Source: Candidatus Nanohalococcus occultus (lineage in GTDB: Archaea > Nanohalarchaeota > Nanosalinia > Nanosalinales > Nanosalinaceae). Taken from it: a DNA stretch of 64,000 nt. The stretch covers positions 1 through 64,000 of the forward strand of contig NZ_CP104395.1 of assembly GCF_029207735.1 (NCBI RefSeq), given 5' to 3'. The notes beneath the pieces are model-generated. The model ran no database searches and had not been told where the DNA came from. It worked only from the letters and a program-made list of their open reading frames with translations. This document shows positions 23,643-37,649 of the stretch, one piece after another. Positions within the stretch are counted from its first letter, which is position 1. Every line of letters begins with the position of its first letter. Both the position numbers and the translations under genes were made by a program.

Positions 23643-23966
23643 ATGAAGGATCACGATCTCGAAAAGCTATTTCTGAACAAGAAGCCGGTAGATCTGCTCA
23701 TACAGCTGGAAAAACACGATAATAGAAACTATGCCTCGGCTCTCTCGACCGACGCTGATGTAACTTACTCTCACACAGTCAAATGTCTCCAGAGAATGGA
23801 GCGGTATGGCCTGGTTGAGTTCGAACGCAAGGGCAGGAAAAAGGAGATCAAGCTCACAGATCAAGGCGACCAGATCGCAGAGAATCTCTTCGACCTCATG
23901 AAAGCTATGACAGGAGACGAAGAAACCGAGGACGAAGACTCTGTTATAGAAGATTCCTCGCTGTAA
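23643..23966 (+). CDS. Winged-helix DNA-binding protein (paralogue A)
   Basis: 107 aa. MarR-like winged helix: a helix with LFLNKKPVDLLIQL, recognition region VTYSHTVKCLQRMERYGLVEF, and wing RKGRKKEIKLTDQGDQIAENL. It is paralogous to the genes at 35.5 and 36.0 kb (shared K-KP, Y-HTVK, KQGRKK-LT motifs). CTAATAAAC (23609-23617) sits about 28 nt upstream, so the ATG is probably leaderless. It lies next to the dyad array at 24.07-25.04 kb and could bind it, but that is untested. Confidence 0.85.
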   Translation: MKDHDLEKLFLNKKPVDLLIQLEKHDNRNYASALSTDADVTYSHTVKCLQRMERYGLVEFERKGRKKEIKLTDQGDQIAENLFDLMKAMTGDEETEDEDSVIEDSSL

Positions 23967-25852: not shown

Positions 25853-27190
25853 GTGTTACTATATAATGACAACTTTGTGAACTTCCGTAAATCGTTGTAT
25901 AAAAAGAGAGACGGTCAGGCTAAGGGGACTTCTGTCTTCATGGGGACTCGGTTTACCGGCTTTCCGAAAAAAGACTGGTATGGGGAGACCAACACCATAG
26001 GGGGCGGAAGCCCGCTTAACTACAGAAGCTCGTTTATGCTCAATAAAGGTCTAACAAACCTGCTCAGGGCGGGCAAAGAAGACTTCGAGATAGAGGAAGG
26101 GTCTTTACACATAAACAACCGGAGTATCGAGGAGATAAACGACTTTCTAAACGGCGAAGGTAACGGCGATCTAACTTTGATCAACACTGGGCCGTTTAAC
26201 AGCGAAATAGAAGACAAGGCCGGCGGAGACAGAGAATCACATCTTAACTACTTCGAGTTAATGATGGATCAAGGCATGAAGGTCGTAAACACGCCTAAGA
26301 TCGCGAAAGCTTGTGGAGACAAGCGTATAACATACAGTTTGTTTGAGGAACAGAAGGAAAACAGTCTTCCATGGTACAACCTTGATCACTATCTTTCCGG
26401 TCCAGGGATCGCAGGGCTAAAAAATGACTTCAAACGTTTCAAAGACAAATATAACTTCGAGGACGGAGAGAACGGAGATGTACCGGTTGTGGCCAAGCCG
26501 GCTAATGGCAGTGGCGGAGATGAAATACTTTTCACAACGATGGATTCGTTTATCAGCGGTGCTGAAAGGAAAGGCTCGATACGGAAACTTTTCGCATCTG
26601 AAGGCTATAATCCGAATGGAAGAGTTCTACAGATGTCAGTTCCTGCGGTATATGATCAGCGGATAATTGCGACCGACGGCGTAATTGAGACTGCCGAAAC
26701 GCGTATTGGCGAAGGAGATCTCCACAACTTACAGGGAGGAGGTAGAGCAATACCTGTCAAGAGAGATGAACTACAGGAGGGGGCTGTAAATATGGTGCAG
26801 GATTACTCGAAAGCTCTCTTACAGGGACTCGGTGTTCATGAAAACGCAGGGTCGTTCATAGGATGGGATGCTCTGGGATTCGACCTTGAAAGCGAGAAGC
26901 TCGATGGCTTCCCGGATTACAAACGTTTTTTGCGGGAAAATGTAGCTCATGAAGATTACGCCGTCGAGCATGAAGGCCAAACAGTTTATCTGGTTCCTGG
27001 AGAGGCCAATGATTCGCCGGGATCAAAGATTGACGGTGTTAACTCGGCTCACCCTGAACAAAACTCAGCTCTAGCTTTGATGAAGTTTGCCGATGATCTC
27101 AGCAGAGGTCAGGTTCACGACCCTTACGAGGCTGAACAACTAGCTCCAGTTTACAGACATATTGTGAACGATCATTTCAGAGACATGTAG
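25853..27190 (+). CDS. ATP-grasp ligase-like protein
   Basis: About 445 aa. ATP-grasp features: FELMMDQGMKVVNTPKIAKACGDK (pre-ATP-grasp to A-loop, about residues 130-155), VPVVAKPANGSGGDEIL (glycine-rich loop, about 210), YDQRIIATDGVIETAETRIGEGDLHNL (RimK-like RxxxxxG segment) and a late acidic YLVPGEANDSPG (metal-binding E/N). Family members join carboxylates to amines; the substrate is unknown. TATATAA at 25860-25866 lies inside the first codons, so the start may be further downstream (GTG 25877 or TTG 25895). It directly precedes the secreted-protein module. Confidence 0.7.
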   Translation: MLLYNDNFVNFRKSLYKKRDGQAKGTSVFMGTRFTGFPKKDWYGETNTIGGGSPLNYRSSFMLNKGLTNLLRAGKEDFEIEEGSLHINNRSIEEINDFLNGEGNGDLTLINTGPFNSEIEDKAGGDRESHLNYFELMMDQGMKVVNTPKIAKACGDKRITYSLFEEQKENSLPWYNLDHYLSGPGIAGLKNDFKRFKDKYNFEDGENGDVPVVAKPANGSGGDEILFTTMDSFISGAERKGSIRKLFASEGYNPNGRVLQMSVPAVYDQRIIATDGVIETAETRIGEGDLHNLQGGGRAIPVKRDELQEGAVNMVQDYSKALLQGLGVHENAGSFIGWDALGFDLESEKLDGFPDYKRFLRENVAHEDYAVEHEGQTVYLVPGEANDSPGSKIDGVNSAHPEQNSALALMKFADDLSRGQVHDPYEAEQLAPVYRHIVNDHFRDM

Positions 27191-27257: not shown

Positions 27258-28340
27258 ATGACAGAAGATTCAATAAACCGCGACGGTTCAATAGAGGACG
27301 TCTCGGCAATGTTAGGTGGGGATGGAAGCGCAAAAACGGAAGACGGAACTATCGCAGCTGATGATAGCTCGATGTCATCCGACGACTCAGTGTTCACTCC
27401 TGGTTTCCCAGAGGGTTCTGGAGGATCGACAGGACGTGGAGGTCTTGGACCGAACAGCGACGATTTACCGGTGCCTGCTCCCAGTGGCGACGAACCTGAA
27501 AGAGAGTTCGTTTCTCCTGAGAACTCGGACGAGTTCAGTCTAGGGTACAAAGTTGTCGGAGACAAGTCTGACTCACGACTTCCTAACTTCCTTACTGTAA
27601 CTTACGAACAGGCGAACAGCTGGTTCGATGAAGGATTAGGTTCTGATGCCTCCTACGATATAGGAATAGGGGACAAAATTAAATCTGCTGTAGCACACTT
27701 CCCGGGCGTCGGATCCGCCTCTAACTCGTCCACAGATAGAGGCATTGGGGAAACTGATAGACAAGGAAAACTAACACGCAGAGCCTTCGTTCACGGAGGT
27801 CTGGCGGCTTTAGCGGGAGCTTCCGCAGGCGTAGCATCTCAGCAGACAGGAGGTTCTCAGAATGGTCCTGAGGCACGCGATTCTGGGGGAGGAGCATCTG
27901 AAGCCGCGGGCAGCACAGCTGACGATATTTACAGGCTCCAAGATGGGGAATCCACGATCGATCTGGATATTTCTCCGAGACAGGACTACAATGAGCTTAC
28001 ATGGGGGATCCAGGAAGATGGAGACCTGATTGTAATGGATGAATCCGACCGTCAAATCTGGGAGTATGAGGCAGAAGACGTTGAAGGACTTGACGTCCTT
28101 AAGGCGCTGTATCAGGGCGAGTCTAAGACGCTCCCTGAAGGCGCAGCAAAACAGATCAGCTCTGGAGAAAACTGGGAGGAAAACGACCAGTATGTTGAAG
28201 CCAGTTACTCGGAGGTCAAAGATACTCTCGTAAAAAATGGCCAGAAAAGAACAGCTGCCAACGTCTTATATGACTTCAGTGAATCAAGACTAGATGATCA
28301 ACCAGTCTACGAAGACGAAATCGAACATCTTCTTGAGTAG
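27258..28340 (+). CDS. Tat-signal protein with shared C-terminal domain (module A)
   Basis: 360 aa. A long acidic, Ser/Gly-rich N-terminal part (about 1-170) precedes a twin-arginine signal, TRRAFVHGGLAALAGASAGVA near residue 174, so the N-terminal part should stay cytoplasmic and the C-terminal 160 residues be exported. The exported part has GDLIVMDESDRQIWEYEAEDVEG, matching the LQEDGTV-D-DR-FE-EDFP pattern of the paralogues at 32.5 and 36.6 kb. Function unknown. It is followed after 11 nt by a surface repeat protein, an arrangement repeated at 32.5-33.2 kb. Confidence 0.75.
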   Translation: MTEDSINRDGSIEDVSAMLGGDGSAKTEDGTIAADDSSMSSDDSVFTPGFPEGSGGSTGRGGLGPNSDDLPVPAPSGDEPEREFVSPENSDEFSLGYKVVGDKSDSRLPNFLTVTYEQANSWFDEGLGSDASYDIGIGDKIKSAVAHFPGVGSASNSSTDRGIGETDRQGKLTRRAFVHGGLAALAGASAGVASQQTGGSQNGPEARDSGGGASEAAGSTADDIYRLQDGESTIDLDISPRQDYNELTWGIQEDGDLIVMDESDRQIWEYEAEDVEGLDVLKALYQGESKTLPEGAAKQISSGENWEENDQYVEASYSEVKDTLVKNGQKRTAANVLYDFSESRLDDQPVYEDEIEHLLE

Positions 28341-28351
28341 GTCTTGGGACG

Positions 28352-30106
28352 ATGGGAAATACAAAAATGTTGGCTCTGACAGCACTGCTCTCACTTGCGC
28401 TTATAGCGCCAGCGGCATCGATTGTGGCAGGTCCGGGCGGAGATCCATACGACTGCGGGGACTGCGATAGCGCTTACCCTACAGGCGATGACGGTTCGGA
28501 TGATGGTTCGTGGTCTGGTGGCGATACCGAGACCAATGATGGGACGGATAGTGGTGGAGCTGACACATCTGATGGTTCGGATGATGGTTCGTGGTCTGGT
28601 GATGATTCGGAGACTAATGATGGGACTGACAGTTCCGACGACGACACTGACAGTTCAACGGAGACGGAACAAGACTGGTCTGGTGATGATTCGGAGACTA
28701 ATGATGGGACAGATACTTCTAGCCCTGATTCTGGTTCGGAGGATGATGGTTCGTGGTCTGGTGATGATTCGGAGACTAATGATGGAACGGATACCTCTGA
28801 TTCCGATTCAACGGATACAGATGAAGACATAGGAACAGATGACGGCGGTTCGGACTCTACAGACGATACTTCTGAGGAAGATAGCACTGACACTTCCGGA
28901 GAGTCCGATACTGACGATGAAGCCGGCGGCAGCTCTGGAGGAGGTTCCACTGGCGGCGGATCAACTGGTGGAGGCACCGGTGACGGCGATGGAGATTCTG
29001 GTTCCGGCGACTCTGGTTCTGGAGATGGATCGACTGGAGGAGGCGATTCAGGTGATTCCAACGATGATCCGGCTGTAAGCTTTACTTTCAGCCCTTCGAA
29101 TCCGGAGCCAGGCCAGGAGGTTACGTTCACGGCTGATGCTTCGGACTCGGATGGTTCTATTCAGTCGATTGAATGGGATCTTGACGATGATGGTGCCTTC
29201 GACGATGCGACAGGTGAGACCGCTAAGAGAAGCTTTAGCTCTGAAGGTGACTACAAGGTCACTGTCCGTGCTACCGACGATGACGGTGCGGAAAATACAA
29301 TCTCTGATACAGTCATGGTTAGAGCTGACAGCGGTTCAGATAGCGATGACGACGATGAAGATGACGGTGATTCCAGCGGAGGATCCGGTGGCGGCTCAGT
29401 TGGCGGCGGCGAGATTATAATCGGCAGCCCCGAGCCGTCCATGAATGTGGCTCTCTCAAGTGATACGGTTGAGTACAACCAGCCTGTAACTGTCTCAGGT
29501 AGCTTCGAGAACGTTGATTCGCCTAGACAGGTAACAGTCTACTTCGGCGGGCAGCAGGTCTCGACACTTAGCTCGGCGGATACTTTTTCAACCAGCTTCG
29601 AGGCCAACATTGTTGGAGAAAACGAGGTCCGGGTTGTATCCGGCGAACTAGAAAAGACAATGGTTCTAAATGTCAATCCAGCCGTAAGAATTGACGGAAT
29701 CAACGCTCAGACATTTCTCCGACCTTCGGAAAGACATGAGGTGTGTGTGGAGATAACAGCTCCATCAAGCACCGAAGTACAGCTTTACGAGAACGATGAA
29801 CTAGTAGGAACCAGAAACACCGGCGATGTCGCATGTTTCACACGGATCGCACCCGAAGACAGTAACTCAGTTACATACCGAGCTGTAGCAACTTCAGGCT
29901 CGGCAAGGGATGTGGAGGAAAAAACTATCTCGGTCATACCTGAGGAAACAGGGACTCAGCCGAGCAACACGCCAACTGGAGGTTTCTTCTCGGAGACGTC
30001 CAATATCGCGCTCTCAATAGCCGCCATACTGCTAGCTATCTTAGCAGCAGTCGGCTACAGGAAAAGAGAGCAACTCAAAACTTACGTTTCAGGCATCAGA
30101 GCCTGA
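28352..30106 (+). CDS. Surface protein: Asp-rich repeats, PKD and Ig-like domains
   Basis: 584 aa. Sec-type signal peptide (about 1-27), four copies of a SWSGDDSETNDGTD-like repeat (about 50-145), an Asp/Ser/Gly-rich linker, and a PKD domain (about 240-323: SFTFSPSNPEPGQEVTF ... GDYKVTVRATDDDG). A Gly-rich linker follows, then two Ig-like beta domains with one Cys pair, and a C-terminal membrane anchor (about 551-570) with a basic tail. The acidic repeats may bind Ca2+. The architecture suggests an adhesin or stalk. It is paralogous to the protein at 31.45-32.48 kb. Expressed with the Tat gene 11 nt upstream. Confidence 0.8.
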   Translation: MGNTKMLALTALLSLALIAPAASIVAGPGGDPYDCGDCDSAYPTGDDGSDDGSWSGGDTETNDGTDSGGADTSDGSDDGSWSGDDSETNDGTDSSDDDTDSSTETEQDWSGDDSETNDGTDTSSPDSGSEDDGSWSGDDSETNDGTDTSDSDSTDTDEDIGTDDGGSDSTDDTSEEDSTDTSGESDTDDEAGGSSGGGSTGGGSTGGGTGDGDGDSGSGDSGSGDGSTGGGDSGDSNDDPAVSFTFSPSNPEPGQEVTFTADASDSDGSIQSIEWDLDDDGAFDDATGETAKRSFSSEGDYKVTVRATDDDGAENTISDTVMVRADSGSDSDDDDEDDGDSSGGSGGGSVGGGEIIIGSPEPSMNVALSSDTVEYNQPVTVSGSFENVDSPRQVTVYFGGQQVSTLSSADTFSTSFEANIVGENEVRVVSGELEKTMVLNVNPAVRIDGINAQTFLRPSERHEVCVEITAPSSTEVQLYENDELVGTRNTGDVACFTRIAPEDSNSVTYRAVATSGSARDVEEKTISVIPEETGTQPSNTPTGGFFSETSNIALSIAAILLAILAAVGYRKREQLKTYVSGIRA

Positions 30107-30118
30107 AACAACTTTTCT

Positions 30119-30499
30119 CTATCTTTCTATACGAGAATAACAGTAGAAGGTGCCTAAACCGGTTGCGAGCGCCCCTCCGAGTTCTCCGAATCCGCTGGCC
30201 GCATCAATAACTTTCGGCGCGTACTCAATTAGTTTTTGAGCGTCTTGCTGTAGGTAAGGAGCTGCTTTAGATGCGTCGGTAACTGTGGCGGCGAAACCTG
30301 TGGAAAAAGCAAGTGTGGCGGCTTTGTAGCCTAGGTTCTTCTGGTAATTGCTTTCTGTGCTTTGGCTGTGTTTGCTGGTTTCGTTTTCATCACTTAGAAG
30401 GCTGTTTATCGATTCTTCGTTGCCTTCGAGAGTCACTGAGAGTTCGTTGTTTTCAGGTTCTTCGTCTTCATCGAGGTAGGATAGTATATCAGAACTCAT
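30119..30499 (-). CDS. Small protein with hydrophobic C-terminal region
   Basis: 126 aa, unrecognised. An acidic N-terminal half (residues 1-50, rich in Glu/Asp/Ser) precedes two weakly hydrophobic helical stretches (about 55-75, YKAATLAFSTGFAATVTDA, and 98-118, FGELGGALATGLGTFYCY). The long acidic N-terminus resembles that of the module A Tat protein. It converges with the surface-protein gene, 12 nt apart, and may be a membrane-associated accessory of the module. Confidence 0.6.
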   Translation of the reverse strand: MSSDILSYLDEDEEPENNELSVTLEGNEESINSLLSDENETSKHSQSTESNYQKNLGYKAATLAFSTGFAATVTDASKAAPYLQQDAQKLIEYAPKVIDAASGFGELGGALATGLGTFYCYSRIER

Positions 30500-30599
30500 T
30501 ACAGGTCGTTGTATTATTTTTTCAATACGTTTCTCAATTTAAACCCGGTATACGGAATATTACATGTTGAAGAATATATTTGGGGTGCTGTCGGTTTGT

Positions 30600-31370
30600 C
30601 TAGAGGTAAAATTCGAATCCTCCGTCCCGGACAGCTTCTTCTTCCAGATCGCTTTCAAGGGCGGAAAGTTTCCCTTCCGCGTATTTTTTGATCTCGGATG
30701 TGTTGAAGTATCGGCCGGCCTTACTTCCGCTGTTACCCAGGACGTACAGCTCCATGCCGATAAACTGGTCGTCACGTTCATCTGCTCCGCCTATATCGAA
30801 GACTGGTTCTCCGAGATCGTAGGCTATCTCGAAGCTGTTTTTGAACGGCTGGCTGATGTTGTTGATGTACTCTGCGCGCAGATCCTTGGCAAGGTATTGT
30901 CTGATATCCCGGGTTTCTCCTGAGGCTTTTATTCCCATGCGCATCGTCGCATAATGGTTGTTTCCGATCAGTCGAGATATCTCGTCTTCATCTCCGACTA
31001 GCCTAGGGTTTCTTTCCATCGCCGACAGTATCTCATCGTCTCTGAAGTAAAAAGTATCCATCAAAACCTTGTTCTGGGTTTCCCGGACGGTCGGGCCTGA
31101 AAGCTCCTGTTCGGCCTGATCGTGGATTGCCTGTGCGGTTTCTTCAAGCAGAGGCGCCGAATACGTCACGAACGGCAGATCCTCTTCGAGCTGGAAAGGA
31201 AGCCCGCCAGGTGCTTTTATCCGAAATCGTCCCCAGTCAGTGTAATCTGGGTCCGGTGCGCTACATCCTGCCAGCGCTGTCAGCCCTAAAGCGCCTGCGC
31301 CAGCAAGTAGTTTTCTTCGCGTGGTTTCTTTACCTTCAAGGTAGTCAGATATGTCTTCGAGTCTTTCCAT
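30600..31370 (-). CDS. Tat-exported lipoprotein
   Basis: 256 aa. The Tat motif TTRRKLLAG near residue 17 and the hydrophobic core are followed directly by a lipobox LAGCS (Cys about 35), so the mature protein is predicted to be lipid-anchored outside the membrane, as in haloarchaea. The mature region has mixed alpha/beta content and a long polar linker but no recognised catalytic motif. It lies between the two surface-protein genes of the duplicated module. Confidence 0.8.
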   Translation of the reverse strand: MERLEDISDYLEGKETTRRKLLAGAGALGLTALAGCSAPDPDYTDWGRFRIKAPGGLPFQLEEDLPFVTYSAPLLEETAQAIHDQAEQELSGPTVRETQNKVLMDTFYFRDDEILSAMERNPRLVGDEDEISRLIGNNHYATMRMGIKASGETRDIRQYLAKDLRAEYINNISQPFKNSFEIAYDLGEPVFDIGGADERDDQFIGMELYVLGNSGSKAGRYFNTSEIKKYAEGKLSALESDLEEEAVRDGGFEFYL

Positions 31371-31453
31371 TTTTCTTCGGTTCCAATTATTTGTTTCTGG
31401 TTTTTCGGGTTCGGTTTTCTAATAAGTAAAAAAAGAATATGTGAAGCGCCTAT

Positions 31454-32482
31454 CTACACGATAGGCACTAATTGGACGATGAATGCTACCATTGCTGTTA
31501 GCATGTTGATCATCGACTGGAAGATTCCAGCGGATGTTCGTGGGTTGTCCGATAGGTCGCCAGCTGTTGAGTCAGTTCCATCGCCTGTTACGGTGATGAT
31601 GCCTGTCTGAACATCTCTGTCGCCCTCCACGTTAGCTACGACGTTGACTGTGTGTGTTCCCTGAGATAGGTCTACCTCGAAACATACACGGCCTGTGCCG
31701 GTCTGGCTAGCTACTTCTACGCCATCAACTGTCAGGATTACGTCTGGGTTTGCTGCTGATGATACATCAGCGCAGATATCGACGTTTCTTCCCGAGTCAA
31801 CGGTCGCTGGTAGGTCCAGGTTGCTTACCTCTACTGAGGTTGTTACGTACAGCTGTCTTTCAACAGATGCTTCGCGCGTTCTGATCTCAACTGTGTGTTC
31901 TCCTGCTGTTTCCGCGGTGAACTGTGTGCTGAAATCGTATGCGTCGTTCAGTCGTGTGGTCTGTACAAGTTCTCCATCGACGTAGATGTCAATGTCTCGT
32001 ACTCGTGGGTATTCTACATGACCTGTTACATCGACTGTCTGCCCTACTGCTACTGTTTCAGGTATGTCAACGCTGATCACAGGTTCTAGTACCTGTACGT
32101 CGGCTCTGTGGATTTCTCCGCCGCCGCTACCGCCTCTTGACGAGCTGCTATCTGTTTCTGATGAGCTGTCAGAGGTATCTCGGTCGTCATCGTTGGTTGC
32201 GGACTCTCCGTCCCACGTGCTGGCTGTAGATCCGCCGTCATCGTTGTTCGTGGCTGATCCACCGTCCCACTTGGTGGCTGATCCGTCATTGTCGTTCGTA
32301 GCACTTCCGCCATCCCATCCATTGGTGGATGAGGTGCTGGTGTCAGTGTTGGAATCGGATCCGCCGTCATCGTTGTTTGTAGCGGATGCTCCGTCCCAGT
32401 CCTGCGCCATCCCTGTCCCTGTGACAACGAGTAGCGATACCAGTATGACGAAAAGTGAGCTGATGAGATTTTTCTTCATCAT
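31454..32482 (-). CDS. Surface repeat protein with two Ig-like domains (module B)
   Basis: 342 aa. Signal peptide (about 1-26), four repeats of the form WDGxSATNxDDG (about 28-105), a Ser/Gly linker, then two Ig-like beta domains. The first starts near residue 130 (PVISVDIPETVAVGQTVDVTG). The second carries the Cys pair ICADVS ... RVCFEV. A C-terminal membrane helix (about 320-340) ends the protein. The same order and Cys pairing occur in the 584-aa protein at 28.35 kb, minus its PKD domain, so the two are paralogues. It follows its Tat partner gene by 36 nt on the minus strand. Confidence 0.8.
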   Translation of the reverse strand: MMKKNLISSLFVILVSLLVVTGTGMAQDWDGASATNNDDGGSDSNTDTSTSSTNGWDGGSATNDNDGSATKWDGGSATNNDDGGSTASTWDGESATNDDDRDTSDSSSETDSSSSRGGSGGGEIHRADVQVLEPVISVDIPETVAVGQTVDVTGHVEYPRVRDIDIYVDGELVQTTRLNDAYDFSTQFTAETAGEHTVEIRTREASVERQLYVTTSVEVSNLDLPATVDSGRNVDICADVSSAANPDVILTVDGVEVASQTGTGRVCFEVDLSQGTHTVNVVANVEGDRDVQTGIITVTGDGTDSTAGDLSDNPRTSAGIFQSMINMLTAMVAFIVQLVPIV

Positions 32483-32518
32483 TTATTCACCTTTAGTCTC
32501 TCAACGCGTGAGAGGGGT

Positions 32519-33193
32519 TTAGTTCCCTCCACTGTACGTTGGGTTGCTATCGAAGATCAGATCCCATTCTGCTTCGTCAGCCATATCGTCGTATGCTGAT
32601 GAGCTGTGTCCGAAAAGCTCCTGCTGTGTTACTTCGATACCAGATACTCCTGGAGCAGGTTCCATGGTTTCTCTCGAACCTGAAAGATCTGTGTGGAGTT
32701 CTGCGTAGTCAGCGTTCATAGGGAACTCATCTACTTCGAAGCTTCTCCATTCACGGTCTCCGTGGTCAAGAGCGTAAACAGTCCCGTCTTCCTGTAGGTA
32801 TAGCTCGTCAGATACGTCTCCGACAACTCCAATTCCTTCAGGTGTGTCTGCGGTTTCTCCTGCTGTAGGGTCTGTTACCGCTGCTCCGCCTGCTGCCCAG
32901 TCGATTGCGTATCCGTCGCCGTCTAGGGCTTCAGCTGCTGCGTAACCTACTACTGCTGTTTGTCCGACAAGAGATAGGAATCCTCTTCGGCTTAGATCTC
33001 CTGCTGCAGGTTTGTTAAGGAAATCTGCTTCTTCGAAATCTGTTTCTTTGTCCTCGTCAGTTACCTTGTGGAAATTGACGTAGGAATCTTTGATGTTTGA
33101 TAATCTTTCTCTTATTGAGAGTCTTTCTTCTTCGCTTACAGCTTCTAGACTTCGTTCGACGTCGTCCATTCCGCTGCGGTCTTCTGTTGACAT
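32519..33193 (-). CDS. Tat-signal protein with shared C-terminal domain (module B)
   Basis: 224 aa. An acidic N-terminal part of about 65 residues precedes the twin-arginine signal LSRRGFLSLVGQTAVVGYAAAEAL (about 68-91). The exported C-terminus reads YLQEDGTVYALDHGDREWRSFEVDEFP and later TQQELFGHSSSAYDDMADEAEWD, closely matching the paralogue at 36.6 kb and more distantly the one at 27.3 kb. Function unknown. A minus-strand TATA-like CTTATATTA (33230-33240) precedes it. It forms a pair with the downstream surface repeat protein. Confidence 0.78.
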   Translation of the reverse strand: MSTEDRSGMDDVERSLEAVSEEERLSIRERLSNIKDSYVNFHKVTDEDKETDFEEADFLNKPAAGDLSRRGFLSLVGQTAVVGYAAAEALDGDGYAIDWAAGGAAVTDPTAGETADTPEGIGVVGDVSDELYLQEDGTVYALDHGDREWRSFEVDEFPMNADYAELHTDLSGSRETMEPAPGVSGIEVTQQELFGHSSSAYDDMADEAEWDLIFDSNPTYSGGN

Positions 33194-33354: not shown

Positions 33355-33981
33355 TCAGTTGCTAAAGCCTGCGCTTAAAATCCTTTTCAGGGCGTCTTCA
33401 AGCGTTTCATCTGTCTTTACAAGCTGGTCTTCGGTTACTTCAACTACGAATCCGGAGGTGATGTTTGGAGCTGTAGGTACGAAGACGACTTTCCGTCCGT
33501 CCTTGCTACAGTTACCTGTCTGGAAACCGGTGAACTGAACGCCGTTGAAATCGATTTTCACAGGGTGTTTGAAGTCATCTTTCTTCCGGAAGACGGTATC
33601 TGCCGCGGTCTTCGTAATTGTATAGACCGAGGATATCAAAGGTATCTGTAGAAAGATCAGATCCATTCTGCTCTCCAGCATCGAACCCTTACGGGTGGAG
33701 AAAAGCTTGCCGGTGCCTATGATCAGTACGCTTCCTAATACTACTATAAGGCTGCCTTTGATCAGGTGGTTCAGTACGGGGTAGGGTGTGATCTGGAAGA
33801 ACTCGTTTCCAGGGATCGAGCCCACAATCTGTAGAAGCCAGGATGCTAAAAGAAAGTTCGCAGCTAAAGGAGTAAGAACAATTATTCCTACCACTGCTAG
33901 ACGTTTGAAATTTCCAACAGAGCTTACTGTATGGCTTGAAGTATCTATACTGGTTTTTAAAGAGTTAAAGCTGTTTTTCAT
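33355..33981 (-). CDS. DUF502-family membrane protein
   Basis: 208 aa with two predicted membrane helices (about 28-50 and 72-92) and the DUF502 C-terminal signature: VVFVPTAPNITSGFVVEVTEDQLVKTDETLEDALKRILSAG. Members are found in bacteria, plants and archaea with no assigned activity. A hairpin CTTTAGC/GCTAAAG (33344-33350 with 33361-33367) spans the end of the gene and may terminate transcription. Confidence 0.88.
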   Translation of the reverse strand: MKNSFNSLKTSIDTSSHTVSSVGNFKRLAVVGIIVLTPLAANFLLASWLLQIVGSIPGNEFFQITPYPVLNHLIKGSLIVVLGSVLIIGTGKLFSTRKGSMLESRMDLIFLQIPLISSVYTITKTAADTVFRKKDDFKHPVKIDFNGVQFTGFQTGNCSKDGRKVVFVPTAPNITSGFVVEVTEDQLVKTDETLEDALKRILSAGFSN

Positions 33982-35504: not shown

Positions 35505-35831
35505 ATGATAGACAATAGTTCGGAAATACAGAAACTTTTCCTGAAAGAAAAACCTGCGCGAGCTTTAGTAGCTCTCAGACAGTCCCGTGAGGAAATGTAT
35601 CTCAGACTGGTCTCGAAGAAAATCGACTGTACCTACGCTCACACTGTAAAGATAATAGCTATGATGAAAGAGCATGGACTTGTAAAAGTGCGAAAACAGG
35701 GCAGAAAAAAGATCTTAGAGCTGACTGAAGACGGAGAGCGTTATGCCGACTGCCTCGTAAGCATGCAGGATATCGAGCGAGGAATGCGCTTCGACATCAA
35801 CGTCGATAGAGAACTCGCACAAAACGCTTAA
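35505..35831 (+). CDS. Winged-helix DNA-binding protein (paralogue B)
   Basis: 108 aa with the same pattern as the gene at 23.6 kb: LFLKEKPARALVAL, TYAHTVKIIAMMKEHGLVKV and RKQGRKKILELTEDGERYA. It is MarR-like, probably dimeric. The short acidic C-terminal tail is unlike the other paralogues. It is next to paralogue C, so the two look like a local duplication. A hairpin at 35846-35865 (CGTGGC/GCCACG) follows and may terminate its transcript. Confidence 0.82.
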   Translation: MIDNSSEIQKLFLKEKPARALVALRQSREEMYLRLVSKKIDCTYAHTVKIIAMMKEHGLVKVRKQGRKKILELTEDGERYADCLVSMQDIERGMRFDINVDRELAQNA

Positions 35832-35865: not shown

Positions 35866-36028
35866 CTATCTTATATTATTTCGCTTCTAGAATTGTTCTC
35901 ACAGTCCTGTATTAATGTATACGTTCTATAATCTCTATTTGTATTGTTATCTTTGTTCTACTGCCTTATATGCGGGGCAATGAGTATACATGGAGGTATT
36001 TCCATTAGTGTACCTGAGGTCAGTGACC

Positions 36029-36388
36029 ATGGAGCCAACGCACAAGACGCCTACAGAAATTTTCGTCAAAGAAAAGCCTGTTATGGCGCTTTTAGTGATT
36101 TATGAAGCAGAATCCGAGATATACCCGAGTAAAGTCTCCAAAGCTATAGACTCAACTTACTCTCACACTGTGAAGATAATTTCAAAGATGGAAGAGCAAG
36201 GAATAGTTGAGACTGAAAAACAAGGCAGAAAACGACTTTTGAAGCTCACAGAGCTGGGCAACTCGTACGCAGAGATACTTCTGAAACTAGTGGACTTAGA
36301 AGACGGTTTTCCTTACAGAACACAGCTAGGGAGATCGTACGGGTTTTTCAGCAAGAAAGATTCTGGATCAGAGAACTTTGCGGGATAG
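36029..36388 (+). CDS. Winged-helix DNA-binding protein (paralogue C)
   Basis: 119 aa from the ATG at 36029. This start is preferred over the ATG at 35990 because GAGGT lies 8 nt upstream and it matches the N-terminal length of the paralogues; CTTATATG at 35965-35972 could drive either. The core (IFVKEKPVMALLVI, STYSHTVKIISKMEEQGIVET, KQGRKRLLKLTELG) is clearly the same family as 23.6 and 35.5 kb. The C-terminus (residues 88-119) is unique. It precedes the third Tat paralogue by 180 nt. Confidence 0.8.
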   Translation: MEPTHKTPTEIFVKEKPVMALLVIYEAESEIYPSKVSKAIDSTYSHTVKIISKMEEQGIVETEKQGRKRLLKLTELGNSYAEILLKLVDLEDGFPYRTQLGRSYGFFSKKDSGSENFAG

Positions 36389-36569: not shown

Positions 36570-37274
36570 ATGTCAACTGAATATGAAAACGATAGTAGAT
36601 CAAACTCTTCTAGAGGCTCGAACAAAGGATCGGCAACACGTAGAGCATTCCTACAGATGGGAGCAGGAGCCTTAGGTGTTTACGGTCTGCTTGATTTTAC
36701 AGATAACGGTAAGCTAGATTTAAGCCCGGTGAGAGGGCAGGGCGCTACTTACTCCAGCAGCGGCGGAGATGACTTCATAGGAGGGAGCGCATCAAACAGT
36801 AACAACCAGTCCGACGGCGAGGCCTCGGATCCTACGGGAGGGGTTGTTGAGCCTACAGAAACACCGGAGGACAGTTCTCAGACTACTTCTACGCCCGAAC
36901 CAACCCCGGAGCCAACCCCGACATCCGAGCCGCGGACAACTTCGGAACCGGCCTACAGCTCCGATCTGCCTGATTCTTGTGATAGAATGTACTTACAGGA
37001 GGATGGAACGGTTGTAGGAGTGGATATAGAGGACAGACAGTACAGAGTGTTTGAACCGGAAGATTTCCCTGCTAACAGCGGTCTCTCGGCGCTCTACGAT
37101 GAACTGGAGGACTCGCGTCCACAGACCAATCTACCGGCTGATGTAGGCACGGGTGTAAGAACCACTAGACAGGAAGTCTTCGGGTTCTCAACGGAGGCAT
37201 ACGACGATATGGCCGACGAACTGGAGTGGGATGAGATATGGGATCCATCATCCAGCTCAACCTGCGATTACTAA
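36570..37274 (+). CDS. Tat-signal protein with shared C-terminal domain (orphan copy)
   Basis: 234 aa from the ATG at 36570, supported by AGAGGA upstream; an in-frame TTG at 36546 has no support. The Tat signal ATRRAFLQMGAGALGVYGLLDF starts near residue 22, so here the cytoplasmic lead is short. It is followed by a Ser/Pro/Thr-rich low-complexity stalk (about 70-130: repeated PEPTP/TSEP) and a C-terminal domain YLQEDGTVVGVDIEDRQYRVFEPEDFP ... FSTEAYDDMADELEWDEIWD, nearly the same as module B. No repeat-protein partner is adjacent. Confidence 0.78.
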   Translation: MSTEYENDSRSNSSRGSNKGSATRRAFLQMGAGALGVYGLLDFTDNGKLDLSPVRGQGATYSSSGGDDFIGGSASNSNNQSDGEASDPTGGVVEPTETPEDSSQTTSTPEPTPEPTPTSEPRTTSEPAYSSDLPDSCDRMYLQEDGTVVGVDIEDRQYRVFEPEDFPANSGLSALYDELEDSRPQTNLPADVGTGVRTTRQEVFGFSTEAYDDMADELEWDEIWDPSSSSTCDY

Positions 37275-37649
37275 TCACGCAGAGTCAAGGATCTCGACTT
37301 CGTATCCTTCCGGATCCTTGACAAAACCGTAGTCGCCAGGACACTCGGCCGGCGGACGGTAATCCTCTCCGCCAGCCTCTACAGCTTTCTCGTAAACCTC
37401 TTGAAGCTCTTGATCTTCATCAATTCTGATCGCTATGTGGCCGAAACCATCGCCTTTCTCGTAGTTTTCATCTTCTCCGTGATTGTAAGTTAACTCTATC
37501 TCTGCTTCCTGACCTGGAATTCTCAAAAAGTAGAGTGTGAACGTCTCCATCTCCTTTTCTCTCCGTAGCTCGAAGCCGAATGCTTCTCGGTAGAACTCGA
37601 TTACTTTTTCAGGATCGGAAACTCTCAGCATCGTGTGTGCTAGTTCCAT
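37275..37649 (-). CDS. gloA: Lactoylglutathione lyase-like (glyoxalase I, VOC fold)
   Basis: 124 aa. Two beta-alpha-beta modules of the VOC fold: LAHTMLRVSDPEKVIEFYREAFGFEL ... IELTYNHGEDENYEKGDGFGHIAIRI ... GFVKDPEGYEVEIL, which reproduce the GloA consensus including the metal-binding His and Glu positions. Glyoxalase I converts the methylglyoxal-thiol hemithioacetal to S-lactoylthiol. Haloarchaea lack glutathione, so the thiol here may be another one. It directly follows dnaJ on the same strand (13 nt). Confidence 0.85.
   Translation of the reverse strand: MELAHTMLRVSDPEKVIEFYREAFGFELRREKEMETFTLYFLRIPGQEAEIELTYNHGEDENYEKGDGFGHIAIRIDEDQELQEVYEKAVEAGGEDYRPPAECPGDYGFVKDPEGYEVEILDSA

Follow-up and report, generated by a model that had tools for sequence, protein, structure and literature searches.

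In the GTDB family of Candidatus Nanohalococcus occultus, the gene for an Ig-like surface protein, here called B, is preceded in 24 of 26 cases, directly and on the same strand, by the gene for a small protein, A, with an RR or KR motif and a hydrophobic segment. The window, i.e., the 64,000 nucleotides analysed here, covers bases 1-64000 of the single 948,351-bp contig of strain SVXNc (G000) and carries two of the three A-B surface modules of the genome, the third and larger pair being located at 889 kb. In the model towards which we lean, the A ectodomain binds B near the membrane and couples it to the membrane and to the cytoplasmic part of A. A would be a single-pass protein with its N-terminus in the cytoplasm and its ectodomain outside, inserted via an RR (Tat-type) signal-anchor, and B would be a Sec-exported surface protein with two Ig-like domains at its end. 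As A is encoded immediately upstream of B, both would be made together, and their contact would take place outside the cell, as the first-pass annotation had also supposed.

As an entry to the poorly understood construction of the surface with which DPANN symbionts touch their host, the A-B pair offers a compact, testable, family-wide unit that is predicted to join a single membrane partner to a single Ig-like surface protein, a stoichiometry that belongs to the model, as would any role in host contact. Cultivated species (SVXNc, BNXNv and probably LC1Nh) are among those that carry it. The pair also poses a puzzle, in that Tat-type signals are retained where the Tat system is undetected.

The gene pairs of the window

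The five genes named in the first-pass annotation, their coordinates, the same gene order in both pairs and the gaps of 11 and 36 nt were all verified. A1 (27258..28340, plus strand) lies directly upstream of B1 (28352..30106, plus strand). Its N-terminal region of 173 aa is followed by the predicted signal/anchor KLTRRAFVHGGLAALAGASAGV and a 165-aa ectodomain. B1 begins with a Sec signal, continues with four SWSGDD repeats, a linker, a PKD domain and an Ig pair with a Cys pair, and ends with TGGFF and a membrane helix. In the second pair, on the minus strand, A2 (32519..33193) has an N-terminal region of 68 aa, the segment DLSRRGFLSLVGQTAVVGYAAAE and a 134-aa ectodomain; B2 (31454..32482) has a Sec signal, four WDG repeats, a Ser/Gly linker, two Ig-like domains with a Cys pair, and a hydrophobic C-terminus. 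A3 (36570..37274, plus strand) abuts gloA (37275-37649) and has two ectodomain Cys residues (137 and 232) but no adjacent B. GloA is named SVXNc_0045 in PMC10266531; counting back from it gives SVXNc_0044 for A3, SVXNc_0039 for A2, SVXNc_0038 for B2, SVXNc_0037 for C (see below), SVXNc_0035 for B1 and SVXNc_0034 for A1.

Downstream of B2 follow C (30600..31370, minus strand), with the RR lipoprotein signal TTRRKLLAGAGALGLTALAGC, and D (30119..30499, minus strand), a protein of 126 aa with hydrophobic segments that is the last gene of the minus-strand run and doubtful as part of the module. Sequence comparison detected no homologue of C or D in the loci of relatives. On its other side the A2/B2 pair adjoins a gene for a DUF502 membrane protein (33355..33981, minus strand; Pfam PF04367, 2.3e-16). 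This neighbour recurs in G007 and G016, with 37-44% identity to the copies in L041 and L047, and in G007 the pair adjoining it is likewise followed by an RR-type lipoprotein (L041 6891-7562), which shares no detectable sequence similarity with C. Three paralogous small winged-helix-like genes (23643-23966, 35505-35831 and 35990-36388; 37-46% identity) are scattered around the modules, and just upstream of A1 a 445-aa protein (25853-27190) displays weak RimK/LysX-type (ATP-grasp) similarity alone.

The third Tat paralogue reported earlier was borne out, A3 being clearly paralogous to A2 (51% identity over 91 aa, E 2e-26). The C-terminal pattern ascribed to the first genes of both pairs is strong in A2 and A3 and only partial in A1, because A1 has just a 35-aa stretch in common with A3 (E 4e-5) and its match to A2 is close to noise (E 0.017). 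On sequence grounds, A1 is to be regarded as a distant paralogue of the other two. The homology of B1 and B2 extends over the Ig pair (25% identity over 215 aa, E 4e-9). For the second genes the earlier description of a signal peptide, four repeats, an Ig pair and a Cys pair was correct, but it overlooked the PKD domain of B1 (residues 237-323; PKD_4, 9.5e-14), which B2 lacks, and an additional N-terminal CxxC. The assignment of signal peptides and membrane helices is based on sequence and hydropathy. The Sec signal is combined with Ig-type beta-sandwich domains in both proteins, recognized by PKD_4 in B1 and by AlphaFold2 in B2, for which two Ig-like domains were predicted with a pLDDT mostly above 90. 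The prediction for the A domain was uninformative (pLDDT 48). In the PDB the Ig pair of B2 matched generic Ig/Fn3 pairs; titin, NCAM and phage Ig proteins among the fold matches carry no functional information. The W[SD]G repeats, four each in B1 and B2, belong to a type of acidic repeat centred on an aromatic residue: WSGDD and WDGGS in the window, WDDGTADDD in G002, FGDDIDDEG in G007 and RFDSGDS in G006. From genome to genome the repeat type thus persists although its exact residues vary.

The designation of the two pairs as a duplicated module is misleading. B1 matches the B proteins of G010 and G016 better (E 2.7e-14) than it matches B2 (E 1.3e-7), and the A1 ectodomain is related to the A proteins of the same two genomes (27-30% identity, E 7e-13). 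B2 is closest to B of G007 (E 1e-23); between A2 and A of G007 no similarity was detectable. Since A1 and B1 both find their best matches in the G010/G016 pair, a recent tandem duplication is out, and with the best match of B2 in G007 the window pairs are best read as two old paralogous pairs. Neither A3 alone nor a profile of the A C-terminus retrieved a convincing relative outside the genome of the window. The module was detectable across genomes only through the Ig pair of B.

RR signals with and without a detected Tat system

A signal was counted as Tat-type if an S/T-R-R-x-F/hydrophobic motif preceded a weakly hydrophobic h-region. This arrangement was found in A1, A2, A3 and 24 of the 26 family members (two with KR). 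The segments are rich in Gly and Ala, and each is preceded by an N-terminal extension, which reaches 173 residues in the window proteins and measures 8-307 aa across the family. The score of A2 against TIGR01409 (13.4 bits) is below the cut-off.

In SVXNc, tatC (685853-686536) and, directly upstream, tatA (686590-686739) lie next to each other (G000:C1, L142). PMC10266531 ascribes to SVXNc TatC alone and a probably inactive Tat system; the adjacent tatA requires that this statement be corrected. Within 1-3 kb of the two genes are two others encoding canonical SRRxFLK Tat signals after coiled-coil-like N-terminal extensions. Besides G000, tatC was found in G001, G003, G004, G006, G009, G012 and G020, and tatA adjoins it in all of these except G004, in which no tatA was found. 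Neither TatA nor TatC was detected in G002, G007, G008 and G015, which are single contigs 95-99% complete (in draft genomes, failure to detect a gene says little). Tat absences have also been reported in PMC9765267 and PMC10266531. The A proteins of the four genomes nevertheless retain normal RR motifs, which indicates that Tat is probably not necessary for the pair everywhere. The earlier proposal that the modules use both Tat and Sec export is therefore possible for the window genome, where tatA lies beside tatC, but in view of these four it is not supported as a rule.

Three readings of the RR segments in genomes without detected Tat have to be considered. The first, unlikely but the strongest of the three, is that the RR is the positive-inside flank of an ordinary Sec/YidC signal-anchor and that Tat was never the route of A. 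It fits with the observation that, where TatC was undetected, 14 of 15 A proteins retain RR, with a signal hydropathy that hardly differs between these genomes and the TatC genomes (1.52 vs 1.46), and with the lack of detectable TatA and TatC in the four single-contig genomes. It fits less well with the resemblance of the Gly/Ala-rich, weakly hydrophobic segments to Tat signals and with their TIGR01409 scores, which are as high without detected Tat as elsewhere, those of G005 equalling those of Tat-bearing genomes. Moreover, a plain anchor need not retain the motif so widely, and canonical Tat-type signals of proteins without B also persist where TatA and TatC are undetected, in L145 (G007:913000-920000, SRRHFMKTAAGAAALLAGC) and L147 (G002:989000-993000). 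According to a second, rather speculative reading, another translocation route reads the RR signals where TatA and TatC have been lost and keeps them under selection, the A-B modules being among its users. The third, that a very divergent or unassembled TatC was missed and all these species have Tat, would explain the wide retention of RR but is improbable, given that a TatC profile built from this family found nothing up to E 10 in the four single-contig genomes, that TatA is undetected in the same genomes although it lies beside tatC wherever it is found, and that the published absences agree.

Conserved adjacency and loss of the B helix

The Ig-pair profile matches nearly all genomes of the window's family (f1) and defines the 26 B genes, in 17 genomes, referred to above. 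The gaps between A and B range from -86 to +48 nt, and overlaps of 1-19 nt are frequent in type I pairs. The strict A pattern occurs in 20 of the 26 upstream genes and in 17 of 288 other genes from these stretches, for which Fisher's test gives p about 1e-16. Common descent makes this value optimistic, as the test treats genes as independent and pairs descended from a common ancestral pair are not; the background was taken from about 300 genes in the stretches analysed around the loci. The two exceptions to adjacency are the B proteins of G001 (512 aa) and G011 (579 aa), which have trm5 directly upstream in place of an A and likewise lack a clear helix. In the type I locus of G007 the nearest upstream gene encodes an RR lipoprotein, and the gene assigned as A lies one further. 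Had the pairs been unrelated in other genomes, the first-pass annotation would have had to give up its proposal; the pairing survives.

Two types of loci can be distinguished. Type I B proteins, mostly of 870-1650 aa (~1000 aa), lack a C-terminal helix and are encoded beside trm5/dphB, in most cases with a ~580-aa surface protein downstream and often with lipoproteins nearby. Type II B proteins (285-603 aa) have acidic repeats and a C-terminal helix, and their loci are mostly near dnaJ/dnaK/gloA or DUF502. The pairs of the window are small type II modules; counting both types, a genome has up to three copies of the A-B unit. Just upstream of type I A genes lie genes for coiled-coil, probably cytoplasmic proteins (e.g., L040 9120-9821, L146 1091-2888 and L050 9019-10515), some of which resemble the N-terminal region of A.

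In the B homologues of families f2, f3 and f4 the chain continues into a C-terminal membrane helix, whereas in type I B of f1 it ends just after the amphipathic segment that precedes the position of this helix. The C-terminal hydropathy is accordingly <=0.32 in type I B with A versus 3.0-3.1 in f2-f4. No A is found upstream of B in G020 (f3); in G021 (f4), where B retains its helix, the upstream gene is a dissimilar candidate with a KR-hydrophobic stretch; in G019 (f2) a contig end cuts off the upstream region. The B of G020 (L056 5955-7583) showed a match to HAP2/GCS1 (fusexin) that was discarded as probably generic Ig similarity (E 0.0067; 15.5 bits vs a cut-off of 27.4). In the DP2 tree f1 forms a clade (100% support) whose inner branches are poorly resolved. 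The simplest reading would place both the loss of the helix and the acquisition of A at the base of this family. Among the large B proteins, absence of the helix coincides exactly with presence of A; this points to A as the membrane-bound partner of B, and A may have taken over the role of the lost helix. Type II B proteins keep the helix and yet have an A, so that replacement of the anchor cannot be the sole job of A; in the type II modules of the window B would be held by its own helix as well, and the acidic aromatic repeats would serve as an extended stalk.

Certain features of the exported parts also bear on the contact. Ten of the 26 A proteins contain exactly two ectodomain Cys residues, the second within ~6 residues of the C-terminus, and these are likely disulphide-bonded, as expected for an exported domain. 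The A ectodomains diverge far faster than the Ig pair of B. They are too divergent to be aligned across most genera, so that a common binding surface would be conjectural. Binding of A to B is favoured by the adjacency in 24 of 26 cases, the enrichment of the strict pattern, the overlaps, the common relatives of A1 and B1, the helix loss and the two-Cys ectodomains; the type II helices, the divergent ectodomains, the exceptions in G001 and G011, the solitary A3 and the KR gene of G021 with its helix-bearing B speak against it.

Two other explanations of the pairing appear unlikely to about the same degree. A might be a Tat-exported chaperone or assembly factor for the export or folding of B instead of its lasting partner in a surface complex, since A is always upstream and translated first and the region upstream of the type I locus is rich in other RR proteins and in coiled-coil proteins. 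It would be unusual, though, for the chaperone of a conserved domain to evolve so much faster than that domain; a structural role accounts better for the missing helix of type I B, and the long N-terminal regions of A suggest an uncleaved anchor. Alternatively, A and B might be neighbours without contact in a locus of fast-evolving host-attachment surface proteins. Many surface proteins are indeed encoded in the locus, along with lipoproteins and additional RR proteins, and PMC10266531 counts SVXNc_0035 among the putative host-recognition proteins. Mere neighbourhood accounts poorly for order and immediate adjacency being kept at different genome positions (trm5/dphB in type I, dnaJ/gloA/DUF502 in type II) and for the closest relatives that A1 and B1 have in common.

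Near the C-terminal membrane helix, or before it, [TS]GxF is present in 16 of 24 Sec-exported, C-terminally anchored surface proteins as opposed to 11 of 235 other genes. Its carriers include the C-terminus of B1 and the ~580-aa surface proteins (e.g., L040 3677-5422). The archaeosortase TIGR04178 was found in 26 of 27 genomes, and [TS]GxF of B and its neighbours differs from the PGF-type tripartite sorting signal in motif and spacing; it is possibly a new sorting or juxtamembrane motif.

Comparison with known systems

The favoured A-B complex shares features with several known systems. Tat co-export partners and tail-anchored Tat substrates (PMC10924467) similarly combine, in one cluster, a Tat-signal protein with a membrane-anchored partner. 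In those systems the partner lacks a signal of its own and is carried folded through Tat, whereas the B proteins, judged from their sequences, start with their own Sec-type signal, and the A-B pair persists where Tat is undetected. The giant SPEARE proteins (SVXNc_0300) are, like B, Sec-exported, rich in Ig domains and proposed for host contact. SPEARE is one huge polypeptide with more domains, e.g., an ATPase; A-B is a two-gene unit of ordinary size in which enzymatic domains were not detected. The B proteins match the PKD, CARDB, FixG_C and Big families of archaeal surface proteins in Pfam, and the fold matches are generic tandem Ig/Fn3; none of these families implies an obligate upstream partner with an RR signal. 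PMC10266531 lists SVXNc_0035, by gene count B1, as a strain-specific PKD-domain surface protein and, in its accessible portions, does not mention its partner A1. Compared with that label, the PKD insertion alone looks strain-specific, and the Ig pair and the A partner are family-wide.
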